Assembly: GCF_005221385.1 (NCBI RefSeq)
Contig: NZ_CP039903.1
Span: 1,116,001-1,180,000 of the forward strand
Origin: Agrobacterium tumefaciens
GTDB lineage: Bacteria; Pseudomonadota; Alphaproteobacteria; Rhizobiales; Rhizobiaceae
DNA: 64,000 nucleotides
Direction: 5' to 3'
A model generated the notes under the pieces. It worked only from the letters and a program-made list of their open reading frames with translations. It did not search any database and was not told where the DNA came from. Below are positions 13,772-64,000 of this stretch, piece by piece. Numbering within the stretch: the first letter of the stretch is position 1; every line of letters begins with the position of its first letter. The translations under genes were made by a program, and so were the position numbers.

Positions 13772-13807
13772 GCGCTTCGATGATGGTAAGATCTCGTCAT
13801 ATTCGAC

Positions 13808-13891: not shown

Positions 13892-13967
13892 GGAGGAGAG
13901 GTTTGCGGCCTCTATAAACAATCCTCGAAGCGCTTAGCACGCCTGCCTTTAATGCATATCCAAGCGA

Positions 13968-46702: not shown

Positions 46703-46757
46703 TGTCAAAGCTGATTAGAGATGCGACGCCGCTGGCCCGTTAGAAATGCGACACTGG
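46703..46757. repeat. Left terminal inverted repeat of the insertion sequence
   Basis: Contains two ATGCGAC boxes (about 46721 and 46749), probably transposase-binding subrepeats. Pairs with 48803-48857. Confidence 0.75.
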
Positions 46758-46905
46758 CTCCGACAATCAGCCCCCGACCGGACCGGCTGGGCCGGGTTGC
46801 AAGGGTAGGGAGGGGGCGGGTAATGAAACTCCCTCTTCGGCTTTAGCTTCCTCAGTTGTGGCGACTGCTTTGCGCCAATACCGGTCATCAGTTCTCAGCG
46901 AAAAG

Positions 46906-47214: not shown

Positions 47215-47287
47215 TTTTACTCGATCTGAAAAGCGGGCCGGTATCGTATCAGTCTAATACAATGTCTCCTTCGGGCCGAAAGCGGCC

Positions 47288-48715
47288 TTATTCAGCCGCC
47301 TCCATTCGAGCAAGCGCTTTCTGCCTTCTCGCAATCACCTCCGGATCATTCATGAAATCCGTGCGTCGTCCCGGCTTGCGGCCACGCTTCTGATAGCCGT
47401 TCGCCGTGCTGCCGTCGCGAATGCCGAACATATGATCCGTCTGACCGGTGCGGCGATGGCCGTCCTTGCTGCGTTGCTGTTCGCGACCAGCCTGCATCTC
47501 GGCAACCAGCGACAGCATGTCATCCAGTCGCTTGTTGTCTACGACTTCGGCGCGATGTACCGAGCGTAACGTGTCGAAGGTTCTATAGGGCAGGGCAAAG
47601 CTCTCGTGCATGATCTCGAGCCGGCCGTCGGGATAATCGCACACGATCACCTTCTGGCCCGCCAATGGCCTGGATATCTCGGTCGGATCGAGAATGAACA
47701 GCACCTTGTCGTAACGCAGTGTCAGAGATTGCGACAGGGTGCGGACTTCCTTGCGGCACATGGCGCCATCGAGGTTCTCCTGATCGGCCAGCGGTCTGTG
47801 CATGTCCTTCGGATTGCGTGGCAGCTTGCCGAAACGAATGTTGAAATCCGCAATGAACTCAGGTGCAAAGGCATTGGCTTCTTCAATCGTGTCGATGCCG
47901 CGAAGCCGCATCTCTTTCACTAACCGATCCTGCAGCGTCTGATTGGCACGCTCCACCCGGCCTTTAGCCTGCGGGGTGTTGGCACAAATGATGTCGATGT
48001 TTAGCTCATAAAGAGCACGGCCAAACTGCGTCAGTCCGCTGGTGCGGTCCTTCTTCGACGCATGCAGCGAGCGGAAAACGCCGTGCTTGTCGCTGTAGAA
48101 GGCCAGCGGCTTGCCCCATTGCTGTAGATAGGCCTTCGTAGCATGCAGATAGTCGAACGTGTTCTCCGATCCGGCAAAGCGTAGATGCAGAAGCTTGCCG
48201 GTGGCATCATCGATATAGACGAGCAGGGCGCATTTGGGGCCGCGGTTCTCGAACCACCAGTGATGCGAACCATCGATCTGAACCAGTTCGCCAAAGCAAT
48301 CACGTCGGCCACGTGGTTGGAAAACCCGTTTCTTGCGTTCCTGGCGCGAGATCCAGATTCCGGCCTCGGTCATCCATTGCCGCAGCGTCTCTTTGGCGAC
48401 CGAGATCCGGTGCAGCTCGATCAGCTTCTCACGCGCCAGCGTTGGGCCGAAATCCAGATAGCGTTCGCGGATCAGATCCAGCGCCGCATTGCGAAATTCC
48501 TCGCTGTGGCGCCGGTTGCTTGGCTGTGATCGCTTCTTCGAAACGAGCCCGGCCGGGCCATCCCGGTCATAGGCCTGCAGCAGCCGATGGACCTGACTTC
48601 GACTGAGGTCGAGCCGGTCCGCCGCCTGGACGACGCTCAGGCGTTCGTCACGGATCTTCTGGATAAGTTCGAGGCGATGCAATTCTTTCTGCGACATGGT
48701 GATCAAAAAGGACAT
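47288..48715 (-). CDS. Transposase, ISNCY/IS1202-like, DDE type
   Basis: Transposase of 475 aa. N-terminal helix-turn-helix (VVQAADRLDLSRSQVHRLLQAY, about residues 30-51), then an rve integrase core with DDE candidates: Asp in LVQIDGSHHWWFE near 150, Asp in FYSDKHGVFRS near 213, Glu in KGRVERANQTLQDRL near 257. The C-terminal part resembles IS481/ISNCY-type enzymes. GGAG lies 6 bases upstream of the ATG at 48715. The frame is intact, so the element may still be active. Confidence 0.9.
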   Translation of the reverse strand: MSFLITMSQKELHRLELIQKIRDERLSVVQAADRLDLSRSQVHRLLQAYDRDGPAGLVSKKRSQPSNRRHSEEFRNAALDLIRERYLDFGPTLAREKLIELHRISVAKETLRQWMTEAGIWISRQERKKRVFQPRGRRDCFGELVQIDGSHHWWFENRGPKCALLVYIDDATGKLLHLRFAGSENTFDYLHATKAYLQQWGKPLAFYSDKHGVFRSLHASKKDRTSGLTQFGRALYELNIDIICANTPQAKGRVERANQTLQDRLVKEMRLRGIDTIEEANAFAPEFIADFNIRFGKLPRNPKDMHRPLADQENLDGAMCRKEVRTLSQSLTLRYDKVLFILDPTEISRPLAGQKVIVCDYPDGRLEIMHESFALPYRTFDTLRSVHRAEVVDNKRLDDMLSLVAEMQAGREQQRSKDGHRRTGQTDHMFGIRDGSTANGYQKRGRKPGRRTDFMNDPEVIARRQKALARMEAAE

Positions 48716-48802
48716 GACGACTCCGACCGCTCATGGTCTCGACCAGGCTGAAGATCGTCATCCTTGCTCCCAACGTTGGCTTTGACCAGTGCGTCGAGAG
48801 GC

Positions 48803-48857
48803 GAGACTGTCGCATCTCTAACTGGCCCAACTGTCGCATTACTAAATAGCCCTTACA
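48803..48857. repeat. Right terminal inverted repeat of the insertion sequence
   Basis: Inverted partner of 46703-46757, ending ...TAGCCCTTACA just before TACGA. Confidence 0.75.
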
Positions 48858-48862
48858 TACGA
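48858..48862. repeat. Right target-site duplication (TACGA)
   Basis: Identical to 46698-46702. Confidence 0.85.
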
Positions 48863-49219
48863 TAATCGCATAAGATAGATTATGGAACCAAATCATAGGG
48901 AACGCGACGGTCAAGACCAGATAATGCCATGGTTGGCGCCACTCGAAAACTCCAACCTCAGCTCCACCTTTGCAGGCAGTCGGTTTGGGCGTCACCCAAT
49001 CGTCATCGAAAAACGGAAGCCAGCCGCACGATCGCCTTCAGACTGGCGCTGCTTGTCCTTGCTGTTTTCGCCGCAAGGACGCTCCCCGACAAAAGGCCGG
49101 CAATCGACACAACAGTTACCGCGTCGATCGACGACGGATCGCTGCATTCGGATCAAGGCAGCGCCCTGATGCGCGACATGGCTTTGCACGACTAGCAGCC
49201 GAACTGCATGGCGCAGAAG
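48863..49219. other. Intergenic stretch between insertion sequence and polyamine-type operon
   Basis: This 357-base stretch lies downstream of the thioester reductase gene. No convincing gene, RNA or strong terminator is seen. It probably contains the 3' untranslated end of the biosynthetic operon. Confidence 0.5.
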
Positions 49220-50449
49220 TTAAACCAGCTTCGCGTCGTAAAGCCGCTCCATGAAACCGCGCGGCGCAACGGTCCTCGAAATTTCCGCCAGTGGAAAACC
49301 GCTTCCAGCCAGCGGCAGGAAACCTTTTTCGAAGGCGTAATCGAGATAACGCATCATCAGCATCACATCGCATTCGTGGCAGCTGATTCCCGTTCCGGCG
49401 AGTGCCTGTCGGGCATTGCCGGTGTCGTATCTGGCGCTGTCACGCACATAATCGGCATTGCCCAGCATCGACAGAAGATCGGTGAAAACCGAGCTATAGG
49501 CCTTGCCCTCCCGCAGCATCCGGCCCTGGTTGAGCGCATCGAAATAATTGTCGCGTGACAATTCGCGCACCACGTAGCCGCAATCTCGCACCTGTTCCAC
49601 CAGCGCGTTCCAGTCGATCGGTTTCGGATTGACGAGATTGAAGGTGCGGCGGTTATGGGCTCGCCAGTTCATGGCGAGATGCAAGCTCGCCCGCGCCACG
49701 TAATCAACCGGAGTGATGTCGAAATCCTCGTCCGAAGCGAAGGTGAAGCCGGTTTCCACAATGGCGCGCACCGCTTCGTAATAGATACCCTTTACCTTGG
49801 TCTGCGTCAGCGGATAACGACCGGTGCGGCTATCACCCCATATATTGCCGGGGCGTACGATGATGAAATCGAGACCCTTTTGCCCGGCGGCGTGCATCAG
49901 CTTTTCCGACTCGAACTTGGAACGTTCGTAATCCATGTCCGGAAAACGTTGGCCGACGTCGAGCGCATCCTCATAGAGCGTAAACTCCTCATAGAGCTTG
50001 TCGCCGATAACGCTGAAGCTCGATGTATGCATCAATGGAATTTTACCCTCGAGGCAAAACTCCACCATATTGGCCGAACCGCCGACATTGACCGGCGCTA
50101 TTTTGCTGTAGGATGCGATGAGATTGACATTGGCCGCGCAATGCAGCGCAAGATCGATCTTTTCGGCAAGATCACGCCATACCTGCCTTTGCAGGCCGAG
50201 ATGTGATCTGGAAACATCGCCGAGAACAGGCACGATGCGGGCGGCGGCTTCCCCTTTTAGGCCACGTTCCTCGTCATAGCAGAAGAGGATGCTCTCTACC
50301 TTGCCCATCGCTTCCGCCATGTCGGCGGCACGCACCAGGCAATAGACCGTGGCTTTCGTTGTACTCAGCAGTTCCTGCAGCAGGCGTCCGCCCATGACGC
50401 CGGTGGCGCCGGTTAGCAGAATATTTTCCACGCCGTTATCGTAAGTCAT
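49220..50449 (-). CDS. Thioester reductase-like NAD(P)-dependent protein
   Basis: Extended SDR of 409 aa of the thioester-reductase (NAD_binding_4/Lys2-R) type. The Rossmann motif is LLTGATGVMGGRLLQELL near residue 10. Central blocks are HCAANVNLIASYSKIAPVNV near 105, the catalytic Tyr-Lys in MDYERSKFESEKL near 176, and VRPGNIWGDSRTGRY. Such enzymes reduce an acyl thioester on a carrier protein to an aldehyde or alcohol. Here it would release the chain from the ACPs of the synthase upstream. GGAG precedes the ATG at 50449; 13 bases separate it from the SDR gene. FclG of fabclavine synthesis is a functional parallel. Confidence 0.88.
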   Translation of the reverse strand: MTYDNGVENILLTGATGVMGGRLLQELLSTTKATVYCLVRAADMAEAMGKVESILFCYDEERGLKGEAAARIVPVLGDVSRSHLGLQRQVWRDLAEKIDLALHCAANVNLIASYSKIAPVNVGGSANMVEFCLEGKIPLMHTSSFSVIGDKLYEEFTLYEDALDVGQRFPDMDYERSKFESEKLMHAAGQKGLDFIIVRPGNIWGDSRTGRYPLTQTKVKGIYYEAVRAIVETGFTFASDEDFDITPVDYVARASLHLAMNWRAHNRRTFNLVNPKPIDWNALVEQVRDCGYVVRELSRDNYFDALNQGRMLREGKAYSSVFTDLLSMLGNADYVRDSARYDTGNARQALAGTGISCHECDVMLMMRYLDYAFEKGFLPLAGSGFPLAEISRTVAPRGFMERLYDAKLV

Positions 50450-50462
50450 CGCCGATCTCCGT

Positions 50463-51230
50463 TCAAAGCGTTCCGACCCGCATGCCGCCATCCATTGGGA
50501 TCACTGCGGCATTGAGGTAATTGGTTTTGCAGGTGGCCAGAAACGTGACCACTTCCGCCACATCATCAGGCGTACCCCACCGCCCGACCGGGACGATCGA
50601 GCGCACCAGACGTTCATCGGCCACCGTGTCGTTGATGCCTTCCTGTTCGAAGGGTTTGGACATATTGGTCTTGCAGATTCCCGGCGCAATCGCCGTGACG
50701 CTGATGTTGAACTGTCCGAGTTCCTGCGCCCAGGATTCCGAAGCCTTGATGAGACCGGCCTTGGAGGCGGCATAAGCCGCCCCTCCCCCTGCCCCCCAGA
50801 TGCCAGCAATCGAGGCGATGTTGATGACCCGCCCGTAACGCTGGCGGACCATTGAGCGCGTAAAGACACCCGTGCAGTTGAACGCGCCCGTAAGGTTGAC
50901 GTCGATGACCTTGCGGGACTGCGTCTGGCTGCGGTCGTTGACGCAATAGGTGCGGTCGAGAATGCCGGCATTGTTGACCAATACGGTCACCGGCAACCCC
51001 ATTTTCTCGGCAATGGCGCCCGATGCCTGCTCAACGCTGCCATGGTCGGTGACATCCATGGCAAAAACGCCAAGGCGCCCGGGTTTTCCGATCTCCTCTT
51101 CAAGGCGTTGCAGCGCGGCGACGTCGATATCCGCCGCCGCTACCGCATAACCCACATCGAGCAATGCAAGGGTAATGGCGGCGCCGAAGCCGCCTGAAGC
51201 ACCTGTCACGACCGCAATTTGCTGGCTCAC
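50463..51230 (-). CDS. Short-chain dehydrogenase/reductase (FabG-like)
   Basis: Classical SDR of 255 aa. Cofactor motif VVTGASGGFGAAI near residue 8, NNAG near 87, catalytic S-Y-K in NIASIAGIWGAGGGAAYAASKAG near 137-158, and a C-terminal MDGG. The start is a GTG at 51230 that overlaps the aminotransferase stop (GTGA); no ATG fits the family start. FabG-like enzymes reduce 3-oxoacyl thioesters, but since the synthase has its own KR, this one may act on a released or aminated intermediate. Role within the pathway is inference. Confidence 0.9.
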   Translation of the reverse strand: MSQQIAVVTGASGGFGAAITLALLDVGYAVAAADIDVAALQRLEEEIGKPGRLGVFAMDVTDHGSVEQASGAIAEKMGLPVTVLVNNAGILDRTYCVNDRSQTQSRKVIDVNLTGAFNCTGVFTRSMVRQRYGRVINIASIAGIWGAGGGAAYAASKAGLIKASESWAQELGQFNISVTAIAPGICKTNMSKPFEQEGINDTVADERLVRSIVPVGRWGTPDDVAEVVTFLATCKTNYLNAAVIPMDGGMRVGTL

Positions 51231-52591
51231 GCGACTTCCTCGTCCTTGAAGGCGATTTCCATGACCTTGCGGGCATTGACAAGCGCATCGGAGATGCGTT
51301 CCTCGAAGAAATTCACGTCGTCCTGGTTCATCAAGAGGTTGGAATAGATGCGCGACAACGGCGAGAACTGGATGCCGTGGCGCTTGCTCACTTCGCGGAT
51401 GATGATGTCGCAGAATTTCACCTTGTGCGAATAGCCTTCGGAACGATCCACCGGCTCTTCCTGTGAGTGATAGACCAGCGCCGTCGGCATGCCTTGAATG
51501 ACGAGCGGCATGCCGGCAGCCTTGGCCGCCTTGGTGAAGACGCCCGAGATCTGTTCGGTGTAGCGACGCATCCGGTCGTAGCAACCCGGATCCTTTTCGA
51601 CGATATCGAAGGTCGCCTTGATGGCGGCGAGACCCAACGGATAACCGTTGAAAGTGCCGGCATGGATGACTTTGCCGCGCGTATAAAGGTCCATGATGTC
51701 GCGCCGGCCGGCAATGGCGGAAATCGGCATCGATCCGCCGCCGAGCGCCTTGCCGAAGGTGGCGAGATGCGGGGTAACGCCGAGAATATCCTGCGCGCCG
51801 CCGAGACCCAGGCGCACACCGGTGATGATCTCGTCGAAGATCAGCACGATATTATGCTCTTCACACAGTTCCTTGGTGCGCTCCAGATAACCTTCGACCG
51901 GGAAGATACCGCCGCCATTGATGCAGATCGGCTCCATCAGTACGGCCGCGATTTCGTTGCCGTAGCGGCGGATGGTGGCTTCCAGCGCGTTGATATCGTT
52001 CCACGGCAGCATGAAGCTCTGGCTTTCCAGCACGCCATCCGCACGGCCGAGCGTATCGAGCATGTCGCCCTGGTATTTTTCCGGCACGGGAAAATCGAGA
52101 TTGTCCTTCTTGCGCCAGCCCATGACGTTGTCAGCATTGCCGTGATAATGGCCGTGGAAGCGGATGAAACGGTTCTTGCCGGTAAAACCGCGCGCCAACC
52201 GCAGCGCATTCTGCACCGCTTCGGTGCCACTCAGGCAAAACCGCACCATCTCGGCGCAGGGAATGTGCTTTATCATCAGTTCCGCCACCTCGATCTCCAG
52301 ATCGCAGGTGTCGACCGAAGTGACCTTCTCCATGTAGCGGATCAGCGCTTCATTATAGGCCTCATTGTGGTGGCCGACGAAAAGTGCCCCGAATTTGCAG
52401 AACAGGTCGAGATGTTCGTTGCCATCAAGATCCCATACGCGGGAATTGCGGCCCTTGTTGAAGGGCACAACGAAGGCGCGCTCGGCGTCACCGAAATTAT
52501 AGTGGGTGCCGCCCGGCATCAGTTCCCAGAGCCGCTTGTAGAAATCGCGCGAAATCTTCAGCGTCAGCTTGCTATCCGTATCTGTGATCAT
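51227..52591 (-). CDS. Class III PLP-dependent aminotransferase
   Basis: Aminotransferase of 454 aa, class III (GSAM/glutamate-1-semialdehyde type). SGTEAVQNALRLARGFTGK near residue 121, IFDEIITGVRLGLGG near 251 (PLP Asp), and the Schiff-base Lys281 in ATFGKALGGGSMP. It is too long and in the wrong context for hemL. Between PfaD-like and SDR genes with 4-base overlaps on both sides. Expected to convert an aldehyde or ketone made by the synthase to an amine, as the aminotransferase in zeamine/fabclavine assembly does. Confidence 0.92.
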   Translation of the reverse strand: MITDTDSKLTLKISRDFYKRLWELMPGGTHYNFGDAERAFVVPFNKGRNSRVWDLDGNEHLDLFCKFGALFVGHHNEAYNEALIRYMEKVTSVDTCDLEIEVAELMIKHIPCAEMVRFCLSGTEAVQNALRLARGFTGKNRFIRFHGHYHGNADNVMGWRKKDNLDFPVPEKYQGDMLDTLGRADGVLESQSFMLPWNDINALEATIRRYGNEIAAVLMEPICINGGGIFPVEGYLERTKELCEEHNIVLIFDEIITGVRLGLGGAQDILGVTPHLATFGKALGGGSMPISAIAGRRDIMDLYTRGKVIHAGTFNGYPLGLAAIKATFDIVEKDPGCYDRMRRYTEQISGVFTKAAKAAGMPLVIQGMPTALVYHSQEEPVDRSEGYSHKVKFCDIIIREVSKRHGIQFSPLSRIYSNLLMNQDDVNFFEERISDALVNARKVMEIAFKDEEVA

Positions 52592-54285
52592 GGCTGTGCG
52601 TTCTCCAGTCTGGCCGGCGATGCTGCCGGGGCGGTTCCGATTGACGGGGATGGATGCCGTGTTGGCGGCGTTGAAGGACCGGCGGAATTTTCCGCCCAGG
52701 GCCGATAGCGGTAGAGCGCGTCCGGCACCGGCAGGCCCATGTGTTTCAGCGCTCCGAGCCTTGCAAGATAGGCCGCGTTGCGCATCAGAAGATCGGCGAT
52801 AGCCACGACGGAGCGGCGCTCCACCGGCTCGTAAGGGCTGCCGCGCAACCATTCATTGATTGCGCCCATGGCTGGGCCACACCATATCTGGTAGTCGACC
52901 GCGCGGGATTTTTCTCCGGCAATCGCCCAGCGGGAGGATTGGCCGAGATACCATTGAAAAACCAGCGCCATGCGCTTTTTCGGATGCGTTTCCGCCGCTT
53001 CGATCATTCTGGGATTGCCGCGCGCCTGAAAGAACTGCCGGGTGTCTTCCCAGACCTGCGGCAAGGTGCGCTGAAAAAGCCCGCTCTCCAGACTGGCGAT
53101 TTCTGCTACCGGAATGTCTTCGAGGCTGTCATATTGCTTGTAGAGATTGTAGAGTTTCTGGGCGCGCATGGCATACATGGTGCCACCCTTCAGCACCTGA
53201 ACCTTGGATCCGATCTCGAACATGTCGGCGGATGGCGCCATCGCCATGTCATCCATCCTCGCGCGTCCGAGCAGGGCCTTCACCTGTGGCGAAGTGCCAG
53301 CCTCGATACAGGCCTGATTGATGGAACCGGTGCAGACATAGGCCGCTCCCATGGCGAAAGCCGCATAGATCGCCTGCGGATTGCCGATGCCGCCGGCCGC
53401 GCCGATGCGGACGCGGAACACCTCTCCCCTGAGATCGGCTATTTCATCCCGCAACGCCGCAATGGAAGGAAAGGCGCAGTTCAGCACGCCATTGTCGGTA
53501 TGACCACCGGAATTGGCCTCGACGGTGACGTCATCGGCCATCGGCACTTCGCCCGCCATCGCCGCCTGTTCGGCGGAAATCAGACCGTCCTCGACCAGTC
53601 TCGAAAGGATTTTTTCCGGGGCCGGATTGATGAAATGCTGTGCCACTTCGCGGCGCGAAACCTTGGCGATGATGCGGTTGCGCGCTTCGATAGTCCCCTG
53701 CCCGTTGCGAACAAGCCCGACTGCACGCCAATAAACGATGGCCGGTGAGAGGTTCATGTAGGCCGAGGCCTCCACTACCTTCACGCCATGGCGGATGCAC
53801 AGACGCACCACATCCATTTCCCATTCGGCATCGCCGGGATTATGCAGCAGATTGACGCCGTAGGGGCCGTGCGGCAGAGCGGCGCTTATTCGCGCCAGCG
53901 CCGAGGCGACGCGCTCCCTGCCAAGACCACCCGCACCGAAGAAGCCCAGGAGCCGTTCCTTGCCGAGCGCGATCACCATGTCTTCAGAGTGAATGCCATT
54001 GGCCATCGCCCCGGCATAATAGGCCATGCGCACGCCATAATCGCGCAGGAAACCCGGATCTCCGAGTTGGTGGGGCTCCAGCACGGGCACAATTCCCAGG
54101 CATTTCTCCACCTCCGCACAGCTGGTTTCGAGCAATTGCTTGCCGCCGGGGTTGAGTACGTAGAGGCGTTTATCGAGATCGGCGAGGAGCCGGCCCATTG
54201 CCTCGATAGAGGTAGCGTCAATGTCTGCCTGTTTTTTCCATGTCCGGAAAAGCGGTGTGAAATTGATTTGCGGATTTTCGTTCAT
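52588..54285 (-). CDS. PfaD-like FMN-dependent enoyl reductase
   Basis: Protein of 565 aa of the PfaD family (2-nitropropane-dioxygenase fold). N-terminal part EVEKCLGIVPVLEPHQLGDPGFLRDYGVR leads into a flavin-barrel with GFFGAGGLGRERV near 135 and VRIGAAGGIGNPQAIYAAFAMGAAYVCTGSINQACIEAGTS near 310-350. It reduces trans-2-enoyl-ACP in trans during chain building. The ATG at 54285 overlaps the KS-gene stop by 4 bases; a longer frame upstream lacks similarity. Same family as the trans-acting ER of PUFA and zeamine/fabclavine systems. Confidence 0.94.
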   Translation of the reverse strand: MNENPQINFTPLFRTWKKQADIDATSIEAMGRLLADLDKRLYVLNPGGKQLLETSCAEVEKCLGIVPVLEPHQLGDPGFLRDYGVRMAYYAGAMANGIHSEDMVIALGKERLLGFFGAGGLGRERVASALARISAALPHGPYGVNLLHNPGDAEWEMDVVRLCIRHGVKVVEASAYMNLSPAIVYWRAVGLVRNGQGTIEARNRIIAKVSRREVAQHFINPAPEKILSRLVEDGLISAEQAAMAGEVPMADDVTVEANSGGHTDNGVLNCAFPSIAALRDEIADLRGEVFRVRIGAAGGIGNPQAIYAAFAMGAAYVCTGSINQACIEAGTSPQVKALLGRARMDDMAMAPSADMFEIGSKVQVLKGGTMYAMRAQKLYNLYKQYDSLEDIPVAEIASLESGLFQRTLPQVWEDTRQFFQARGNPRMIEAAETHPKKRMALVFQWYLGQSSRWAIAGEKSRAVDYQIWCGPAMGAINEWLRGSPYEPVERRSVVAIADLLMRNAAYLARLGALKHMGLPVPDALYRYRPWAENSAGPSTPPTRHPSPSIGTAPAASPARLENAQP

Positions 54286-57200
54286 GCTGCGGCCACCCAT
54301 GATGATTGGTTGGTGCGGCGACGGGCAAAACCGGCGCCGAGATTGTCGCAAATGCCGATGACATTGCCCTTGTGGATGATCTCGGCGACGAAGACGAAGG
54401 ATGCGGTCTCCAGCGTCACACCGTCCTCGCCATAGGCGAGGTCGATCGACTTGCAGGTCAGGCGATAACTGAGCGTATCGCGCTGCGGCTTTACCTCCCC
54501 CCGGAACTTGGCGCTGTATTGATGGTCGGTCAGCGTATGCCCGCTAAGGTGAGGAACCGAATAGAGCCCGAGATAGGCCAGGTAGAATTTCAGAAGTTGT
54601 TCGCAGCCTTCCACCAGCAATGTTCCCGGCACACAGGGGTCGTTCTTGAAATGCGCCTTGAAAGCCCAGTGATCAGGATCGATGTCGCGCTCGCCGACAA
54701 CCACGCCGAGGCCGAACGCGCCGCCTTTGGGGTCGACATCCACCACCCGGTCGAGCATTCTGGCCATCGGTGTCCACAGCTTTGGCGCGGCAGTTTCAGT
54801 TCTGTAGTTTTGACCAAAGCAGCTTGCCGGGTCGCCGTTGCCCAACGCCTCGACATCGTCTTCGCTGAAACGATTCCTTGTGCAGTTCAGCAGCGGCGTG
54901 AAGGGTTGCCGCACAGCGTCGTCATTTTTCAGGAAGGGAGCCGGATCGACACCCTTCGAGCGTTCCAGATCGCGCGGCAGGAAAAAGCCGGAATTGGCCT
55001 CCAGCCGGAAAACGGGCCGCTCATCGGCAAGGCACCAATATTCGTAGGAAACCAGAATATTACGGCCGACCTTGAGGAAGGATTTGATATCCACCCGCCC
55101 CCGCAACAATTCGCCGGCGCGCGGCATTTCGCCATAAACGAAGGTGCGGCTGTCCACCGCCCGGTAGCGCAATTCGCCCCTGAAAAGCTGGTCGCAACCG
55201 ATAAGCGTGAAGGCGACGATCATCGCATGTGAGGATTCCAGCGCCACGAAAGCCGGAACCTTGTCCTCGCACATGAACCAGGCATCGCTGGGCAGATCGA
55301 GTTCCCATTCGATGCGGCAGGGCTCCAGCGCGCCGGCCTTGGCCGTTGTGCCGGTAATGCGTGAGGCGAACATATAGGGCGGCGACGGCATGCGCGTGCG
55401 TACCGCATAGGTGTCGGCCAGCGCATAATCCGGCCCAAGCACGCGGCTGACCGCGCCATCCGTCAACTCGATCAATTGCGCTTCATCGAACAATGCGGCA
55501 CGCGCCGGAATAGCCACCTCAACGGACATCAAATGGCTTAGACGACGATAGAACGCCTGCTCGGTCTGCATGAAACGCAGGTTCGTTTGTGCATTCCGGA
55601 TCGCCTGCCGCTGCTGCCAGGTCAGCGGCAGGCGTGGGAAGCAGCCGGAGACCGGGCTATCGAAAGCTTCGGTCACCACTGCCGGGGACGCAAGTGGCCG
55701 CATTGCAGGTGGAGATTTTCCAAACAGGGCAAAATTGGCGGGATCGAGAATGATCTCGGCCATGGTCCGCTCCCGTCCGGTAAACACCCTGACGAGCAGC
55801 GGATCGGTCGCCGAAGCACGCACCGGAACGCTCACCGCCTGAGGCCTCGCCACTGTCGGGCTTTCCAGCAATATATGGGTATAGGCCCGGTCAACCCCCA
55901 TACCGCTGATTGCCGCCAGTCGCGGACCGGCCGAGCGCAGCGGTGACAGGCCATAATGCAGGACCAGCGCCGTATGGATAAGACTGAGCATGCCCGAAGC
56001 CGCGCCAAGATGGCCGTAATGACGCTTTGAACTGCCCGCAGCAACGGTGGCGCCATAGACCCTGGCAAGCCCCTCTGCCTCGATGCGGGCCTCCCTATCA
56101 TCCGCCATGCTGTAGCGTTCGAGATAACTTATCTCTTCCGGCGCAACGCCTGTTTTTTGCAGGCAGGCCTGAGCCGCATCGGCCACGGCATCCGCCGATG
56201 GTTGGAAGGTGGTGCCCGGCGTCATGTCATGGCGGATTTCAAGACCGCGAAGGCGGGCATAAGCGCGCCCGGCTGGTCCGCCATTCGCTCTTTCGAGCAT
56301 GAGCACGCCGCAGCCTTCCCCCACGGGCTGGGTTCGATGGGGAGTGGCATAGATCATGTTTTCCAGCCCGCCATCGCAGGCGCTGCTGGCCAGAATGACC
56401 GCATCGACCATATTCTCGGAGAGCATGTAGCGCGCCAGTTGAAGCCCCTTGAAAGCCGAGCTTTCATGCGCACACAGGGCAAAAGCCGGTCCGTCCAGCC
56501 GCAGATGCGCGGCCACACGGCTTGCGGCGATATTGCCCACCCCACCGGTAATGCCTTCGGCGAAGGGTTCAGGAAAAAGACTGTCTTTGACGATGTGCTG
56601 CAAACCAGCGAGCTGCTCTGCCGAAAGTTTTATGCCCGACCTGTCGAGGCTGTCGCGCAATTGCCAACCGATCTCGTTGCGCGCCTGATAACGCAGGCAG
56701 CTATGATCGACATCCCGCGCGACGATGACCGCGATGTTGCGCCTCTGCCCGTCCAGCGCATAACCCGCATCCAGAAATGCCCGCTCGGCCACCGGCAGCA
56801 GAAAGGCGTGGGCCAGAAGGTGATTGCCGATGACCTTCGGCGGCAGCTTGAAATGGCGGCAATCGAAATCGAAACTTTCGATATAGCCACCGGCCGGCGC
56901 TTCCCCGATCCCGCCCAGGGCCAGAATATCGGCACGCTTTTCGAGACCCAGCCAACGCGTGCGTGGCAATGGCTGGAGCCATTGACGTCCGGTAGTTATC
57001 GTCTCGCGAAATGTTTCGACATTGTCTGTTCCCGGCAGGGCCATGGCTATGCCGACAATATCAATTCCTGCCGGAATGGAGGCAGGCAGGCCTGAGAACG
57101 TCGGCACCATCGCGCCAGCGACATGCTCGCGCAGCACCATATGGCCATTGACGCCACCGAAGCCAAAGGCATTGATGCCGGCACGGCGCGGCTTTTCACC

Positions 57201-58445
57201 CCTCGCCCAGGGCTTGTTTTCGCGAACGATATGCTCACGGTTCACAAGCCCTTTGGGTGTCGTCACAAGGTTTTCTATATCCAGCGTCGCCGGTATCAGG
57301 TCGTGCTGCATCGCCAGCAGCACCTTCAGCAGGCTCGCCATACCGGATGCGGTGAGGCTGTGGCCATTATTGGCCTTGTTAGCGCCAAGAAGCGGTATCG
57401 ACTTTTCGCCAAAGAAGCGTTCGACGGTCGAAAGCTCCACCTGATCGCCCGCCGGCGTTCCCGTCGCATGGCATTCCAGATAATCGATATCAGGCGATAT
57501 CCCCGTATAGGCCCGTTGCAGCGCCAGCATCTGCCCATGCGGATCGGGCAGCAGCATGTGCTTGGCGCCGCCATCATTGGAAACGCCGATCGCTTCGATG
57601 ACACCGTAAATCCGGTCGCCGTCGCGCAGCGCATCTTCGTAGCGTTTCAGCGCCACGATGCCGGCACCTTCCCCGGCCTTCAGCCCTTGCGAGGACCGGT
57701 CGAAGGGAACCGAACGGCCGTCGGTCGGAAAAGCCTGCAAAACGTTGAAACCATGGTCGAGATAGATATGGTCCGCATGGCAGACCGCGCCCGCCAGCAT
57801 CATGTCGGCGCTGCCGTCGAGAAGATAGGAACTGGCCACGCGGATGGCGTAAAGTGCCGAAGAGCAGGCCGCGTCGATGGCGTAGGTCGGCCCGGAAAGA
57901 CCAAGCGCCAGGGCCGCAATCGTGGCATTGTGGCTACCGGTCATGAGATTGAGCCCGGACAGGCCGCTGGCATCCCAATAGGCGGGGAAAGAAAAATCCG
58001 GCCGGTCGAGCAATTCCCGAAGATAGGGTTCGAGAATCCGGTGATAAAAGCCCGACATGAGCCGTTTGCCCGAGTGGGTCGGCATGCCGATATTGCCGGC
58101 GATCAGGCCGCAGCGCTGTGGTGATGCGCCGCTGTCCTGAAGAGCCTGACGCGCCGCATGCATGGTCCAGTGGAACAGAGGGTCGAGTGTGGCAAGGTCC
58201 TCCGCCGGCAGACGATACCCCTCGGCCTCAAAACGGAAGTCATGCACGTGGCCGTTCCGGTTGTAGCAGATATGATCGGCCGTTCCCGGCTCGGGATGAT
58301 AATAAAGCGCTGGATCGACACCCAGTTCAGCAGCGGAGAGTGGCGACGTGCTGTCCCTGCCCTCGACCAGGTTGCGCCAGTAACCATCCGGGGTATCCGC
58401 ACCCGGAAAGACGCATCCAAGCCCCGTAATTGCTATCTGTCCCAT
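54282..58445 (-). CDS. PfaC-like KS-CLF-DH-DH synthase subunit
   Basis: Protein of 1387 aa. KS (about residues 1-430): Cys194 in DAACSSALYA, His326 in ECHATGTPAGD, His362 in KANNGHSLTASG. CLF (about 455-850): the Cys region reads CAHESSAFKG, so the nucleophile is lost, as in chain-length factors. Two FabA-like dehydratase domains follow: one about 960-1170 (SPPYMFASRITG), one about 1200-1380 with HFKNDPCVPGTLLVEG. The architecture equals the PfaC/HglC-HglD and Zmn11/FclD type. I use the ATG at 58445 because AAGGATGA lies 9 bases upstream. It follows the larger subunit gene after 121 bases. Confidence 0.94.
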   Translation of the reverse strand: MGQIAITGLGCVFPGADTPDGYWRNLVEGRDSTSPLSAAELGVDPALYYHPEPGTADHICYNRNGHVHDFRFEAEGYRLPAEDLATLDPLFHWTMHAARQALQDSGASPQRCGLIAGNIGMPTHSGKRLMSGFYHRILEPYLRELLDRPDFSFPAYWDASGLSGLNLMTGSHNATIAALALGLSGPTYAIDAACSSALYAIRVASSYLLDGSADMMLAGAVCHADHIYLDHGFNVLQAFPTDGRSVPFDRSSQGLKAGEGAGIVALKRYEDALRDGDRIYGVIEAIGVSNDGGAKHMLLPDPHGQMLALQRAYTGISPDIDYLECHATGTPAGDQVELSTVERFFGEKSIPLLGANKANNGHSLTASGMASLLKVLLAMQHDLIPATLDIENLVTTPKGLVNREHIVRENKPWARGEKPRRAGINAFGFGGVNGHMVLREHVAGAMVPTFSGLPASIPAGIDIVGIAMALPGTDNVETFRETITTGRQWLQPLPRTRWLGLEKRADILALGGIGEAPAGGYIESFDFDCRHFKLPPKVIGNHLLAHAFLLPVAERAFLDAGYALDGQRRNIAVIVARDVDHSCLRYQARNEIGWQLRDSLDRSGIKLSAEQLAGLQHIVKDSLFPEPFAEGITGGVGNIAASRVAAHLRLDGPAFALCAHESSAFKGLQLARYMLSENMVDAVILASSACDGGLENMIYATPHRTQPVGEGCGVLMLERANGGPAGRAYARLRGLEIRHDMTPGTTFQPSADAVADAAQACLQKTGVAPEEISYLERYSMADDREARIEAEGLARVYGATVAAGSSKRHYGHLGAASGMLSLIHTALVLHYGLSPLRSAGPRLAAISGMGVDRAYTHILLESPTVARPQAVSVPVRASATDPLLVRVFTGRERTMAEIILDPANFALFGKSPPAMRPLASPAVVTEAFDSPVSGCFPRLPLTWQQRQAIRNAQTNLRFMQTEQAFYRRLSHLMSVEVAIPARAALFDEAQLIELTDGAVSRVLGPDYALADTYAVRTRMPSPPYMFASRITGTTAKAGALEPCRIEWELDLPSDAWFMCEDKVPAFVALESSHAMIVAFTLIGCDQLFRGELRYRAVDSRTFVYGEMPRAGELLRGRVDIKSFLKVGRNILVSYEYWCLADERPVFRLEANSGFFLPRDLERSKGVDPAPFLKNDDAVRQPFTPLLNCTRNRFSEDDVEALGNGDPASCFGQNYRTETAAPKLWTPMARMLDRVVDVDPKGGAFGLGVVVGERDIDPDHWAFKAHFKNDPCVPGTLLVEGCEQLLKFYLAYLGLYSVPHLSGHTLTDHQYSAKFRGEVKPQRDTLSYRLTCKSIDLAYGEDGVTLETASFVFVAEIIHKGNVIGICDNLGAGFARRRTNQSSWVAAA

Positions 58446-58566
58446 CGCGATCATCCTTCAAATGGCGCGCAGAGGGAGAGCGTCTCCGGCCTGAACCGGA
58501 ACACGGAAACGCTTCTCACTGCCTGTCGTTACGAGTTTATGGAAAGCCTTTGCTTTTTCGGGGCGG

Positions 58567-61500
58567 CTATTCTGCCGCCTCGACCTTGTCTTCGCGCCCG
58601 ACCAGCCGCTCTCGCAATTGCCGGGAAACGGTGAACTGGACATCCGAGAGCCGGAAATAAAGCTGTCCCGTCTCGTCATGCACGGCGATATCCACCAGAA
58701 GGCTCGCCTGCGTCAGGGATTTTATCGTCATGGAGAGGAAGAACGGCTGCCCGAAACCGAGTGCTGCAAACTGGTCAACGCGGCCGATGGCGGAAGGAAG
58801 TCCGGCATAATCGCTGCCGAGGATCAGCCACAACCACGGCGCCTGCATGAAGACATCACCGAGATAGGCATTAAACGAGGTCGTGCGAAACTGCCCTTGC
58901 ATAGCCTCTTCGACCGGCTTCAACTCGCAGGCGAGTGTGAGACCGTGATCGCCGCCGTTCAGCACCTCCCGCAGCCCCCGAAAGCTTGGGCCATGGAACA
59001 GAAGTGGACCTTCCTGCGGCGTGCCGTAAAGCGGGTAACCCAGCGGCTCGTCATCCTTGCCAAGATCGAAGGCCCCGAGACGTGGGCGAAGGCTCAGTTC
59101 GCGGCTTAATACCACGGTGCCCATATATCGGTTCTGACGTTCGGAGCCGGTCCGGCTATGAACCGAAATCGTCAGGGCATGCCTGTCACCGGCCACAGGG
59201 CACGACGCTTCCGCCGCAGGTTCGATCTGCGCTTCCAGCAGGCAGGTTTCCCCGGCCTCCAGCGTGACACCCTTCAGAACCTTGAAACCGAGCAGGGTCT
59301 CAAAACGATAGCCGGGCAACATATCTTCCGCCAACTTGACCAGCCAGCTTGCCGCTGCCGTGGCGGGAAGGACGTAACGTCCGTCGACCACATGGTCGGC
59401 GAGGAAGGGCGCAGTAGTGAGATCGACCCTGCGCTCCACGAGACGAGATGCCACCTTCGTCTTGACCGTTTTTGCGGCCCTGTAGCTGTCGCCGCCGACC
59501 AGAATTTGCGGACCATCGCCGGAACCGAACTCTTCGGCGAAGAACCGTGTCCCCGTTTTCACCGGAATGATCGCCAGCCCGCGCTCACCATAGGCCTTCT
59601 TGAGCACGTCATTGACCATGCCGCTGTCCCAAGGTCCCCAGCCGATGCTGCGCACGAAGGCATCCGGATAATGCGCCTTGAATATATGCGCGAATTTGTT
59701 CAGCGCCTCGTTCGCCATCGCATAGTCGGTCTGTCCGGCATTGCCGAAGAAGCCCGATACGGATGAGAAGAGGACCAGCTGCCTGATGGCATCCGGCTGC
59801 AGCGCCCGCATCAGATTTTGAAGGCCTCGCACCTTGGTATGGAAGACTGCGTGGAAATCCTCCCCAGTCTTTTTCTCGATACGCTTGTCCGCAAGCAGGC
59901 CCGCGCCGTGGATGATGCCGGTTATCTTGCCGAAGGTCTCTTCGACGGTGGTCACGGTGCGTTCGACATCCTTCGTATCGGCGATATCGCAGGCGAAATA
60001 GGCCGCCTTGCCGCCAAGCTGTTCGATCTTCGCCAGCGTCTGCCGAATTTGCACCGCATGGCGTACACCATTCAGCATTTTTTCGACCTTCACCGGCGTC
60101 GGCTGTTCGCCTTCGGCCTGCATCGCGGCAATCGCGGCTGCCTTCAGCGCCTCATCTCCTTCGATACCTTCTGCCCAGCTGGGCAATGGCGCGTTGATAT
60201 CGGTGCGCCCCAGGAGGGCGAAACGAACGGGACGGCGCTCCGCCAGAGCGATCACGCAATCGGCGGTGATGCCACGCGCGCCGCCGCTGACGAGAAGAAC
60301 GCTATCCGCATCGAGCGCGGTTTCCGGCTGGTCCATCGCCGGTTCGGCCTGGTTGGTAAGGGTCATGCGTGACCCGTCAGGACCACGCCCGACTTCCGCC
60401 AGTGCGGTTTGCGGGTCTTCCAGTTCTTCGATCAGGATGCCGGCAGCTTCCTCGTCGGGCAGTGCCGGATCGATGTCCACAAAGCGGCAGAAAACATCGT
60501 CCCACTCTACGGAAAGCGATTTCGACAATCCGCCGAAACTTGCGCCGATGGCGTTGAATAATCCCCTGCCAGACGTTCCGAGCGAACCGTCGCATCGGCT
60601 GGCGATGAAGAAGGAACTGCGTGCTGCCGTGCCCGTCAAACGCGGCTGAAGTACCCCAGCCAGGGTAAAGAGTGTTTCGGCCGCCTCATAGCCTGCTTCG
60701 GGGAACACATCGCCGATCGATTCCACAGCGGTTACCGGCTGCAGATGGATGAAGCCGCCAATCGGGCCTTCCGCCTGTTCGATTTCAGCGATCATGGCCT
60801 CGATAGCCACCCTGCCGCGATCCTGGAGGTTATAATCGCGCAAGCCCTCCATCGCCAGCCCGGACGATGATTGTTTTGCCGTTCTCTTGCCTTTTGCCGG
60901 TTTAGCCGGCGCGGACAGCTGAAGGCGCGCAACCTTCTCGCCCAGGGCAACGAGGCGGGAGGCCAATGCCTCACTCAGTCCCTTGCCATCATCAACAAGC
61001 AGCCAGATCCGTTCGGCACCAAGGGTCAGCGATGTCCGGTCGGGCCGGGCAAGGTCCTGACGAACCACCCGCTGACGATGGACGGAAGGGCCGGCATTGA
61101 GCGGCTGAGCAGGAAACGCGGATGCATCCTGCTCAGCCGAAGCTTTTTTTGACTGTGATATCTCCTCATCGCCGATGTCCGACAGTTTCGTTGATGTCAC
61201 CACGCCGAGACGTTGCAGGGTCACAACGGAAGCACCCGCTGCAGCTGGTGCGCTGGCGGGTGCAGTCGGTACCGCAGTTTCGGAAACGGCCGCAACAACC
61301 GGAGAAGGACCTTTGATATCGGCCAGCAATTCACCGATAGTGCGCAGGAAGAACTGCGTCATCTTGCGAATATTGCTCATGGTTTCGATGTCGAAATTCT
61401 CGTCGTTGCGGTTCTTGTCCGCATCTTCAAGAAGCCGGGTGCCGTTCGACAGCCGGTCGAACATGGCCCCGAAAATCTCCAGCCGCTTGATCGAATCGAT

Positions 61501-64000
61501 GCCGAGATCGGCCTCAAGGTCCATCTGGTCGCCGATCATATCGACCGGATAACCCGTGCGCTCGCTGACGATGTCAGTCAGTTCGCGGATCAGCCGCTCT
61601 TCGGTGATACCTTCAAGCACCGCAATTCTTGCCTGATCCTCGGCGCTGAGTGCCGGGGCCAAAACAACCGGCGCCACGGCAACAGCAACGGCTGAGTTTC
61701 CTTTGACGGCCACCAGCAATTCATCGACCGTGCGCAGGAAGAACTGCGTCATCTTGCGGATATTGCTCATGGTTTCGATGTCGAAATTCTCGTCGTTGCG
61801 GTTCTTGTCCGCATCTTCAAGAAGCCGGGTGCCGTTCGACAGCCGGTCGAACATGGCCCCGAAAATCTCCAGCCGCTTGATCGAGTCGATCCCGAGATCG
61901 GCCTCAAGGTCCATCTGGTCGCCGATCATATCGACCGGATAACCCGTGCGCTCGCTGACGATATCCGTCAACTCGCGGATCAGTCGCTCTTCGGTAATGC
62001 CTTCGAGAACAGCGATCCTCGCCTGATCCTCGTCGCTGAGAGCAGGAGCCGGTGCGGCGGGTGCCGGCGTCTGCGGCACGGTTATCTGCGGTGCGGCCAT
62101 CACCGGCATCACCGGTTTCGGCGCGGCTATGGAGACGATCGGTGCTGAAGCTGCCCTATCGGCAGCCTTGGGTGTAGCCAATGGCGCCGGCGCGAAACTC
62201 TCCTGCCGCGTTACCGCAACCGGCTGCGCCGGTTTCGGCATGTCCAGCATATTGGGAATGTAGGCGGGGGAATGCGGCAGGTTACGAACCACCTCGCCGC
62301 TGATCAGGGACATCTGGTTGTCGAAATAGCGCTCATGATTGAGGTGGTAGAGTTCCTGATTGCGCTCCAGCAATTGCAGGCTACGCGCAAGGCTCGCGGT
62401 CATGTTTTCCATCTGCGGATGACCGTGGAATTTTTCCAGAAGGTTATGCTGCTTGCTGACCAGAGACCCCAGCATATTGATATATTCGCTCTGGTTGGTC
62501 TGGAACTGCTGGTGAAGCTGGCTGAGCAGATTCTGGCTTTCGATCTGCCTGTCCATCTGGTCCGGCTTCGACATATTTTCGGATTGGCTGGTCATCGCTA
62601 TCTCGATCCTGTCAGTGTCATGGGAGGGCTGAATGGAGGAGGACAAAGGGGGAAAGGAAGGAAGAGGTTTCGCAATCGGCGCAAAAGCCTCGGCCACCTC
62701 AACAGGTCGAGGTGCGGCGCGAACGACCGGAGAAGCGGCCGATTCAGGCGAGCCTGCGACACGCTGGGCGATGAACTTCTCCACCACGGCCGTATCATGC
62801 CGTAGCGCGTGCTCGCGCCGCGCGCGGTTTTTCTCGGTCAGATAAAAGCCGCCCTGCAGCCTGAAGCTGGTGGCCGGCTTCACCGATCGATCCTCCAGCG
62901 GGCGCGGGCGGGCATAAGGGTCGGCTTCGGCAAGAGCCACACCTTCCACCACCAGTTTTGCCAGTGCCCGGCGGAATTGCAGTGCTTCCTCGCCATTGGC
63001 GCTCGGGTTGAGCGAAACCACCGCATGCGGTTTGCCCTTGAGTATGTCACCGGTCAGTTTACCGAGAATGCCTTTCGGGCCGATCTCGACGAACAGATAA
63101 CCGCCATCGGCGTGCAGTCGCTCGATCATGTCCCGGAACCGCACGGGCTGCACCAGCTGCTCGACAAGCGCATCACCATAAAGCGCGGGGTCGCTACCAT
63201 AAGGTTCCGCCGTCGCGCTTGAATAAAGCGCGCAACTTGGCTGCGAGAATTCAATTCCGGCAATTCCGTCCCGGAACGGATCCGCCGCATGTCTGACGTA
63301 AGATGTGTGAAAGGCCGTCGAAACCGGAAGCGTCTGGCAACGGCGGCCACGTTCGGTAAGCCAGGCCTGGGCGCGGGCAATCGCCTCCGTGGCACCGCCG
63401 AACACCAGCTGCTCCGGTGCGTTATCATTGGCGATCACGATATCCGGCACGGCCGCCAGCAATTCCGCCGCATCCTCACGGCGCATCTGTGCCGCGAGCA
63501 TCGCGCCGGGATCGCTAAGCCCACTCGGAGTTTCGACAGCCCGGCCACGGGCAAGCGATGCCCGGTGAAAATCCGCATCCGAAAGCACGCCTGCCGCCCA
63601 CAAAGCTGTAAGTTCGCCATAGCTATGCCCAGCAACAAAATCGGGGGTGAAGCCAAGCCGTTTCAGCAGCTGGAAATAACCGGCGCTCACCGCGCCGATA
63701 GCCGGCTGCGCATTGGCGGTACGGGTAAGTTCACGGGCCTGCCGCATGGTCTCTTCGTCGGAAAAGGCCGGTGGCGGATAAATCACACCCGAAAGGGCGG
63801 GCTGGCCCGCCTCTATAGCCACGGCATCCGCGGCCTCTACGGCATGGCGCAGCTCCGGGTAATCGACCGCGACCCCCGACCCCATATTGACATATTGCGC
63901 GCCCTGCCCCGGAAAAAGCGCGACGATACGGCCTGCCACAGGTGCGGCCTCAGGCTTGTAATACATTCCGGCCGGATGCTCGAAACCCTGATCGGGACTG
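58567..64000 (-). CDS. PfaA-like megasynthase subunit, 5' end beyond window (AT-ACP-ACP-KR-DH visible)
   Basis: Partial gene. The reading frame stays open through 63967-64000 to the edge, and the first ATG (63966) lies inside a KS-AT junction, so the true start and a KS domain are expected upstream. Visible order: AT (LFPGQGAQYVNMG; GHSYGELTALWAAG), a helical Gln/Asn/Leu-rich region (about 62300-62590), Ala/Pro linker, two ACPs each with LGIDSIKR, KR (SGGARGITADCVIAL; SSVSGFFGNAGQTDYAMAN), and a PKS-type DH (FLADHVVDGRYVLPATAA). It builds and partly processes the chain. No phosphopantetheinyl transferase gene is in the window. Confidence 0.93.
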   Translation of the reverse strand, partial: SPDQGFEHPAGMYYKPEAAPVAGRIVALFPGQGAQYVNMGSGVAVDYPELRHAVEAADAVAIEAGQPALSGVIYPPPAFSDEETMRQARELTRTANAQPAIGAVSAGYFQLLKRLGFTPDFVAGHSYGELTALWAAGVLSDADFHRASLARGRAVETPSGLSDPGAMLAAQMRREDAAELLAAVPDIVIANDNAPEQLVFGGATEAIARAQAWLTERGRRCQTLPVSTAFHTSYVRHAADPFRDGIAGIEFSQPSCALYSSATAEPYGSDPALYGDALVEQLVQPVRFRDMIERLHADGGYLFVEIGPKGILGKLTGDILKGKPHAVVSLNPSANGEEALQFRRALAKLVVEGVALAEADPYARPRPLEDRSVKPATSFRLQGGFYLTEKNRARREHALRHDTAVVEKFIAQRVAGSPESAASPVVRAAPRPVEVAEAFAPIAKPLPSFPPLSSSIQPSHDTDRIEIAMTSQSENMSKPDQMDRQIESQNLLSQLHQQFQTNQSEYINMLGSLVSKQHNLLEKFHGHPQMENMTASLARSLQLLERNQELYHLNHERYFDNQMSLISGEVVRNLPHSPAYIPNMLDMPKPAQPVAVTRQESFAPAPLATPKAADRAASAPIVSIAAPKPVMPVMAAPQITVPQTPAPAAPAPALSDEDQARIAVLEGITEERLIRELTDIVSERTGYPVDMIGDQMDLEADLGIDSIKRLEIFGAMFDRLSNGTRLLEDADKNRNDENFDIETMSNIRKMTQFFLRTVDELLVAVKGNSAVAVAVAPVVLAPALSAEDQARIAVLEGITEERLIRELTDIVSERTGYPVDMIGDQMDLEADLGIDSIKRLEIFGAMFDRLSNGTRLLEDADKNRNDENFDIETMSNIRKMTQFFLRTIGELLADIKGPSPVVAAVSETAVPTAPASAPAAAGASVVTLQRLGVVTSTKLSDIGDEEISQSKKASAEQDASAFPAQPLNAGPSVHRQRVVRQDLARPDRTSLTLGAERIWLLVDDGKGLSEALASRLVALGEKVARLQLSAPAKPAKGKRTAKQSSSGLAMEGLRDYNLQDRGRVAIEAMIAEIEQAEGPIGGFIHLQPVTAVESIGDVFPEAGYEAAETLFTLAGVLQPRLTGTAARSSFFIASRCDGSLGTSGRGLFNAIGASFGGLSKSLSVEWDDVFCRFVDIDPALPDEEAAGILIEELEDPQTALAEVGRGPDGSRMTLTNQAEPAMDQPETALDADSVLLVSGGARGITADCVIALAERRPVRFALLGRTDINAPLPSWAEGIEGDEALKAAAIAAMQAEGEQPTPVKVEKMLNGVRHAVQIRQTLAKIEQLGGKAAYFACDIADTKDVERTVTTVEETFGKITGIIHGAGLLADKRIEKKTGEDFHAVFHTKVRGLQNLMRALQPDAIRQLVLFSSVSGFFGNAGQTDYAMANEALNKFAHIFKAHYPDAFVRSIGWGPWDSGMVNDVLKKAYGERGLAIIPVKTGTRFFAEEFGSGDGPQILVGGDSYRAAKTVKTKVASRLVERRVDLTTAPFLADHVVDGRYVLPATAAASWLVKLAEDMLPGYRFETLLGFKVLKGVTLEAGETCLLEAQIEPAAEASCPVAGDRHALTISVHSRTGSERQNRYMGTVVLSRELSLRPRLGAFDLGKDDEPLGYPLYGTPQEGPLLFHGPSFRGLREVLNGGDHGLTLACELKPVEEAMQGQFRTTSFNAYLGDVFMQAPWLWLILGSDYAGLPSAIGRVDQFAALGFGQPFFLSMTIKSLTQASLLVDIAVHDETGQLYFRLSDVQFTVSRQLRERLVGREDKVEAAE
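61318..61660 (-). repeat. ACP repeat, downstream copy
   Basis: Nearly identical to 61708-62050, with a period of 390 bases (130 codons, in frame). Encodes the second ACP in protein order. Confidence 0.9.
61708..62050 (-). repeat. ACP repeat, upstream copy
   Basis: Encodes the first ACP in protein order. The stretch from GTGCGCAGGAAGAACTGCGT on differs from the other copy by only a few bases over more than 200. Confidence 0.9.

Follow-up and report, generated by a model that had tools for sequence, protein, structure and literature searches.

What would an operon with a PUFA-synthase-like domain make-up, an aminotransferase and a thioester reductase produce in an Agrobacterium genome? The operon lies at one end of the window, which is the whole 64,000-nucleotide stretch of DNA analysed here (C1:1116001-1180000) from a genome of four contigs and 5.5 Mb. 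The first-pass annotation had proposed a zeamine/fabclavine-type polyamine system, and this proposal is supported by the gene content, the gene order and the grouping of the aminotransferase and the KS-CLF protein with Zmn/Fcl proteins. Its account of the chemistry, in which chains are released as aldehydes, aminated and re-extended, departs from the published models, which aminate beta-keto intermediates; in the passages of PMC3547906 and PMC9113149, the amines are placed while the chain grows, and the reductase has a single role, in the final step. Judged from its sequence, the locus is real, intact and conserved, a relative of the zeamine/fabclavine systems that has the polyamine part only, like the cluster of Xenorhabdus bovienii.

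Gene content and domain organization

Six co-directional genes occupy positions 49220-64000 on the minus strand in the ORF listing of the window, as annotated earlier, and Pfam and NCBIfam HMM searches gave clear family assignments for their proteins. The order of transcription is PfaA-like, KS-CLF-FabA, PfaD-like ER, class III aminotransferase, SDR/KR and thioester reductase (TR); the PfaA-, PfaC- and PfaD-like subunits, the GSA-type aminotransferase, the KR and the TR that mark zeamine/fabclavine-type systems are all present in a single operon. Four of the genes are joined by short overlaps, also as described before: ATGA at 54282-54285 between the KS-CLF and ER genes, ATGA at 52588-52591 between the ER and aminotransferase genes, and GTGA at 51227-51230 between the aminotransferase and SDR/KR genes.

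The last gene (49220-50449; the ATG at 50491, further upstream, gives another possible start) encodes a stand-alone TR of 409 aa (TIGR01746, 232.2 bits), the counterpart of Zmn14/FclG, and its closest solved structure is MxaA 4u7w. It is preceded by a stand-alone ketoreductase/SDR of 255 aa (50463-51230; adh_short, 164.7 bits), the counterpart of Zmn13/FclF, with a GTG start that overlaps the stop of the aminotransferase gene. The class III (glutamate-semialdehyde-type) PLP aminotransferase is a separate gene (51227-52591; 454 aa; Aminotran_3, 194.5 bits) in which the Lys281 column of the alignment is invariant; we take Lys281 to be the PLP lysine. The PfaD-type ER (52588-54285; 565 aa; TIGR02814, 614.9 bits), with an ATGA overlap at each end, matches the PUFA PfaD structure 4yx6 at E 1e-153. 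The PfaD and TR family scores are both above the curated cut-off.

The Zmn11/FclD counterpart (54282-58454, minus strand; 1390 aa), assigned by Pfam/NCBIfam, motif alignment and tree, had been read as KS-CLF-DH-DH. The KS-CLF part and the last, FabA-type DH are borne out, whereas the stretch before that DH is a degenerate, hotdog-like region with neither a Pfam match nor the His motif. Pfam detects the last FabA domain only, and the His motif, presumably contributing the catalytic residue, lies in that domain; the preceding stretch lacks the His in 12 aligned relatives as well, two of which are from Agrobacterium. Upstream lies the PfaA-like gene, whose 3' part (58567-64000, minus strand; Pfam, extended read), the Zmn10/FclC counterpart, carries AT-ACP-ACP-KR-DH within the window, as annotated. 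Read to its ATG start at C1:1181688, outside the window, the full gene adds a KS, giving KS-AT-ACP-ACP-KR-DH in 2373 aa. KS, KR, ACP, FabA and PKS-DH motifs were all found in the locus proteins by motif alignment.

The two ACPs (two PP-binding stretches and the motif count, approximately 61430-61990, minus strand) are about 130 aa apart; 120 of 160 residues are identical between the repeats, linkers included, and by eye the domain cores are nearly identical. Both are present in all three Agrobacterium sequences compared: the window, L008 (genome G005, Rhizobium rhizogenes GBBC3284 by record title) and L009 (genome G020, Agrobacterium salinitolerans YIC 5082). Of 30 other proteobacterial loci, 27 had a readable region (3 did not), and each of these showed a single such motif. 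Their sequences start 61-669 residues ahead of it, so that an ACP further upstream could escape the count; another pattern match, in L022, appears spurious. Zmn10 is stated in passages of PMC3547906 to carry one ACP, and in this feature of the PfaA-like subunit the window differs from the zeamine/fabclavine type.

The PKS-type dehydratase domain of the same protein (58618-59454, minus strand) scores just above the cut-off (PKS_DH_N 31.0 bits, PS-DH 26.5 bits), with HxxxGxxxxP and DxxxQ intact. The aligned rows of the window, L008, L009 and X. bovienii all retain an intact HxxxGxxxxP, as do those of Chromobacterium, Aquabacterium, X. lircayensis, Bowmanella and Pseudoalteromonas. Replacement of the Gly is seen in Janthinobacterium (Ala) and in Dickeya oryzae and Serratia plymuthica (Asp). 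The deoxy-polyamine of X. bovienii has been attributed to the PKS-type DH in FclC (PMC9113149), and zeamine retains its hydroxyl though its producers carry a homologous DH (PMC9113149 and passages of PMC13291983). On these three known cases only, the intact motif suggests a deoxy-polyamine product, and we predict that the dehydratase motif should decide between the hydroxy and deoxy forms. Within Xenorhabdus, a 2021 paper reported the PKS-type DH from X. bovienii alone (PMC9113149); the X. lircayensis locus (L024) also has this domain with an intact motif.

Beyond position 64000, the KS start, PPTase and export genes that the first-pass annotation had envisaged were all found, and the NRPS/PKS genes also envisaged there were not. 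On the same strand lie genes for a TetR regulator, a 259-aa CN-hydrolase, a 255-aa Sfp/EntD-superfamily PPTase, a 1040-aa RND permease with its adaptor, and an MFS transporter; the TetR gene sits between the two gene blocks of the locus. A 593-aa gene, which we take to encode a ClC channel, adjoins the far side of the exporter genes. The CN-hydrolase (Zmn15/FclH) of zeamine/fabclavine-type systems is thus present, though upstream of the operon rather than downstream; family and place point to its correspondence with FclH/Zmn15 and to that of the PPTase with Zmn5. The RND permease reaches 50% identity in X. bovienii and had no match at E 1e-150 in the searched Dickeya, Serratia, Bowmanella and Pseudoalteromonas genomes. 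We therefore rejected orthology with the Dickeya zeamine pump, and the known zeamine pump lends no support to the export reading. At the other end, beside the operon's 3' end, positions 46703-48888 have an identical copy at C3:50925-53110, so this stretch probably moved recently; the ORF within it (47288-48715) is presumably transposase-like.

Related loci, distribution and selection

A profile scan of genome contigs with the aminotransferase alignment yielded 42 loci: 2 from the Agrobacterium group, 30 from other proteobacteria, 9 from cyanobacteria and a second copy in Janthinobacterium fluminis. The window aminotransferase is 84% identical to that of Chromobacterium, 79% to those of D. oryzae and S. 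plymuthica, 78-80% to Xenorhabdus, 74-77% to Photorhabdus and 68-71% to Pseudoalteromonas and Bowmanella. KR and TR follow the aminotransferase in the same order in 23 of the 30 other proteobacterial loci (one is cut by its end), with a KR 58-69% identical to the window's at that position, and the CN-hydrolase comes next in 22. The seven loci without KR and TR at this place are all from Photorhabdus (L025, L026, L027, L029, L034, L036 and L037), where PfaD-aminotransferase loci have no KR, TR or CN-hydrolase of this type in the stretch compared. Across the 30 loci (L010-L038, L045), the aminotransferase is 68-84% identical, against 32-69% for the other locus proteins.

In all 30 of these loci the ER and aminotransferase are in one frame, as in the fused Zmn12/FclE, whereas in Agrobacterium they are separate genes with a 4-base overlap. 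We take this as a difference of organization and not of function. Given that Agrobacterium nests inside the fused group, a gene split is the simplest reading. Stand-alone entries near the window (P0002-P0005) came from a database search that could not return proteins of fused length and so are no proof of other splits.

The aminotransferase tree (53 rows) has the window within the zeamine/fabclavine clade, with an environmental protein as its closest relative; a Chromobacterium-Aquabacterium-Janthinobacterium group lies beside it (joining branch 90/88, unstarred). The KS-CLF tree (43 rows, the window plus 42 chosen from 120 listed relatives; quick search, SH-aLRT support alone) was built with the window trimmed to residues 1-900, the KS-CLF part, and the other rows whole. 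Here the window groups with Agrobacterium sp. NPDC089420 and environmental rows, a Paludibacterium-Chitinivorax-Aquabacterium group adjoins it, and Xenorhabdus and Dickeya are farther out. All 11 PfaB-type or long rows fall outside this grouping, in a set that left out characterised EPA, DHA and Hgl proteins. Both phylogenies thus place the window inside the clade of known producers. For the reductase, the closest named row is A. tumefaciens at 93% (a cluster of 73 members), followed by Chitinivorax, Aquabacterium and Chromobacterium at 58-61% with unnamed environmental rows between; these closest named relatives belong to genera with zeamine/fabclavine-type loci. The KS-CLF part is only 53% identical to that of X. 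bovienii, a deep divergence from the characterised proteins, and the chain length may therefore differ.

The scan also returned more distant arrangements. The second aminotransferase copy in J. fluminis (L046; 52%) stands alone, without PfaD or TR matches nearby; an RND permease and adaptor, 45% and 36% identical to those of the window locus, lie a few kb away. In Calothrix sp. FI2-JRJ7 (L042), an amidinotransferase-like ORF at 13386-14513 lies between the TR and the PfaA-like gene; it has no Pfam/NCBIfam match, and its best solved match is SxtG 6u1r (560 bits). That locus may produce a lipid or polyamine bearing a guanidino group. At the equivalent position in L039, the ORF likewise has no family match. 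None of 66 pattern matches in viral contigs was a relative, and among 8 plasmid records the best places were all below 60% identity.

The operon was found in 4 of 39 congeneric genomes (aminotransferase at least 98% identical), each with the entire gene set; a fifth aminotransferase match among the 39, at 45%, belongs to another family. Among 397 genomes drawn from the order, its own genome was the sole match at E 1e-80. Among the matches listed, the TetR-to-MFS stretch is complete in G000, G005 and G006 and of lower identity in G020. The ClC gene is present in all 39 congeners, and we examined two non-carriers at this site: G016 has ClC and no gene of the locus, and G011 has, among the matches listed, TetR and MFS only, beside ClC. 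G011 is colinear with G020 save two clean absences, one of 16.8 kb (PfaA to TR) and one of 6.0 kb (CN-hydrolase, PPTase, RND permease and adaptor), and bears a scar in which the end of the TR gene survives (an 86-nt match at 86% covering the TR end and downstream sequence, E 3e-11). We infer that G011 lost both gene blocks, and their loss together supports a joint function.

Comparison of G000 with G020 gave 98.0% protein identity and 78% agreement at fourfold sites for the aminotransferase, 83.1% and 57% for PfaA, and 96.5% and 64% for ClC; against G006, the aminotransferase values are 99.3% and 85%. High protein identity with lower fourfold agreement indicates purifying selection on the aminotransferase, and its synonymous sites diverge about like those of neighbour genes despite its higher protein conservation. 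Fourfold agreement with G020 ranges over 54-78% for the locus genes, around the 64% of the neighbouring ClC, and the GC content is 59.9% at 49220-64000 against 58.8% at 1-45000. The locus is maintained, and its age in these lineages is close to that of its surroundings. A recent foreign island was rejected, since fourfold agreement resembles that of ClC and GC is near that of positions 1-45000, so that the locus looks long resident; a decayed locus was rejected because the motifs are present and purifying selection is seen.

Proposed product and alternative readings

We hold with considerable confidence that the operon codes for a PUFA-synthase-like complex working iteratively to make a long chain with spaced amino groups, a zeamine/fabclavine-type polyamine, released as a finished product. 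Gene content and order, motif residues, trees, selection and the failure to find a partner system are what the sequence shows; the product, its deoxy form, its export, its regulation and an antimicrobial role are what we infer, with the steps assigned through orthology to characterised Zmn/Fcl proteins. Loading of both ACPs would fall to the neighbouring PPTase, and KS-AT and KS-CLF would add malonyl units. In most rounds, KR, the FabA-type DH and PfaD would reduce the beta-keto group fully, whereas in some rounds the class III aminotransferase would instead convert the beta-keto thioester to a beta-amine. KR and the PKS-type DH would act on the last beta-keto/hydroxyl group, TR would release the chain as an aldehyde, and transamination would give a terminal amine. 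The CN-hydrolase would raise the yield, like FclH. Export would run through the RND pump with its adaptor, perhaps also through the MFS pump, under TetR control.

Sequence alone does not tell when, or how often, the aminotransferase acts. If it acted once per chain, the product would be a mono-amino lipid with one beta-amino or terminal amine and no polyamine, which we regard as unlikely. The deep divergence of the KS-CLF from characterised polyamine synthases would fit such a lipid, as would the related aminotransferase domain of MycA, which works within one module according to passages of PMC3547906. However, the aminotransferase, KR and TR stand in the zeamine order, and the aminotransferase is nested in the clade of its Dickeya, Serratia, Xenorhabdus and Chromobacterium counterparts, with which it shares 78-84% identity.

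A search of the genome for the NRPS, PKS and condensation proteins that make the peptide-polyketide part of zeamines and fabclavines found no such partner of the locus. The genome has five condensation-domain matches, four of them above the cut-off, all at C2:1640084-1648887. PPTase and SDR families were matched there by search, and we take the ORFs there to include isochorismate synthase-, DHB ligase-, isochorismatase- and DHB dehydrogenase-like ones; the region reads as an agrobactin-like DHB-siderophore cluster. Its free condensation protein best matches the 'amide synthase' 1l5a, presumably VibH, which acylates an amine. No modular PKS was found elsewhere in the genome, as KS matches outside the locus are all in ORFs of 400-465 aa. 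As these genome-wide searches turned up no NRPS/PKS partner, we read the locus as a polyamine-only system, with no peptide attached. In the congener G034, a stretch at C4:86637-100815 holds five condensation domains of equal score (420.7 bits) and probably encodes an NRPS whose repeated modules are almost identical.

Acylation of the polyamine by the condensation protein or NRPS of the C2 cluster is an improbable extension. It would suit the 1l5a match and the condensation-like FclL, which joins fabclavine polyamines (PMC9113149). All 4 operon carriers have the agrobactin-like cluster, against 16 of 39 congeners overall (a count of rows), but the carriers are related, which makes the overlap weak, and 12 of the 16 genomes with the cluster are without the operon. 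The cluster moreover resembles that of agrobactin, which passages of PMC5739047 describe as otherwise occurring throughout the A. tumefaciens complex. Synthesis of a membrane lipid by a PUFA- or glycolipid-like enzyme, with an aminotransferase serving another pathway, would fit the domain make-up and the PfaD match, yet we rejected it as very improbable given the overlap of the ER, aminotransferase and KR genes within one operon, the relatives of KS-CLF and its grouping away from the 11 PfaB-type or long rows, the strong purifying selection on the aminotransferase and the lack of a PfaB in the part of the genome read around the locus.

With the polyamine-only reading preferred, some Agrobacterium species probably make and export a free polyamine. 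More speculatively, and in our view doubtfully, a free, fully deoxygenated long-chain polyamine of its own chain length may be a secreted weapon that leaves through a dedicated RND pump, while relatives that lost the synthase (such as G011, with TetR and MFS still in place) would keep a pump as resistance, so that producers and resistant non-producers coexist in the rhizosphere.

Comparison with known systems

Zeamines and fabclavines are described in passages of PMC13291983 as broad-spectrum antibiotics, and the polyamine part of fabclavine is bioactive alone (PMC9113149). That no such product had been described from the Agrobacterium group still stands for the literature searched, judged from titles, abstract starts and passages, including passages of PMC3547906, PMC7214866, PMC10052836, PMC5709968, PMC5739047 and PMC8685578; A. 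tumefaciens had, however, been named in print in 2021 among strains with a homologous PKS-type DH (PMC9113149). A 2026 survey of triple hybrids required NRPS and PKS genes nearby, and the passages of its main text do not mention Agrobacterium (PMC13291983). A search for Agrobacterium with hglE-KS and antiSMASH found no literature.

PUFA synthases (pfaABCD) share the KS-AT-ACP-KR-DH, KS-CLF-DH and PfaD logic, to which the window locus adds an aminotransferase, a KR and a TR. In Nostocales, the ER and aminotransferase are separate, as in the window, in the 7 of 9 loci with an ER match, whereas the aminotransferase is only 56-59% identical, the gene order is different and the PfaA-like part is in several frames. 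The nearest named relatives outside Agrobacterium across the two trees are the Chromobacterium, Aquabacterium, Janthinobacterium, Chitinivorax and Paludibacterium loci; the first three have ER and aminotransferase in one frame and one ACP motif where readable.

In S. plymuthica, passages of PMC3547906 describe the PPTase Zmn5, the PfaA-like Zmn10, Zmn11, the ER-aminotransferase Zmn12, the KR Zmn13, the TR Zmn14 and the CN-hydrolase Zmn15, each with a counterpart at the window locus, and the lengths of Zmn13 (255 aa) and Zmn15 (259 aa) are equal to those found here. In contrast, Zmn16-19 (NRPS, PKS, condensation) are absent from the window locus and no ABC exporters lie alongside, and both Serratia and Dickeya have Asp in the PKS-type DH motif where the window has Gly.

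The polyamine-only fcl cluster of X. bovienii, which makes a deoxy-polyamine (PMC9113149), shares with the window its enzymes and their order, the intact HxxxGxxxxP of the PKS-type DH, the CN-hydrolase and the lack of a functional NRPS/PKS, and its fclCDEFGH genes led to polyamines when expressed in E. coli (PMC9113149). The published deoxy-polyamine is C36H79N5 (m/z 582.638), against m/z 598.633 for its oxygenated form (PMC9113149). The two differ in that X. bovienii has the ER and aminotransferase in one protein, one ACP motif, fcl-type transporter genes and a cryptic NRPS homologue, whereas the window has split genes, two ACPs, and RND/MFS pumps, PPTase and TetR alongside. An intact, peptide-free version in a common soil genus extends the polyamine machinery to Alphaproteobacteria, and the natural ER/aminotransferase split offers a means to ask how amination rounds are chosen. 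As the polyamine-only type itself is known from X. bovienii, what appears novel here is the Agrobacterium host, the split ER/aminotransferase, the doubled ACP and the RND/MFS exporters.
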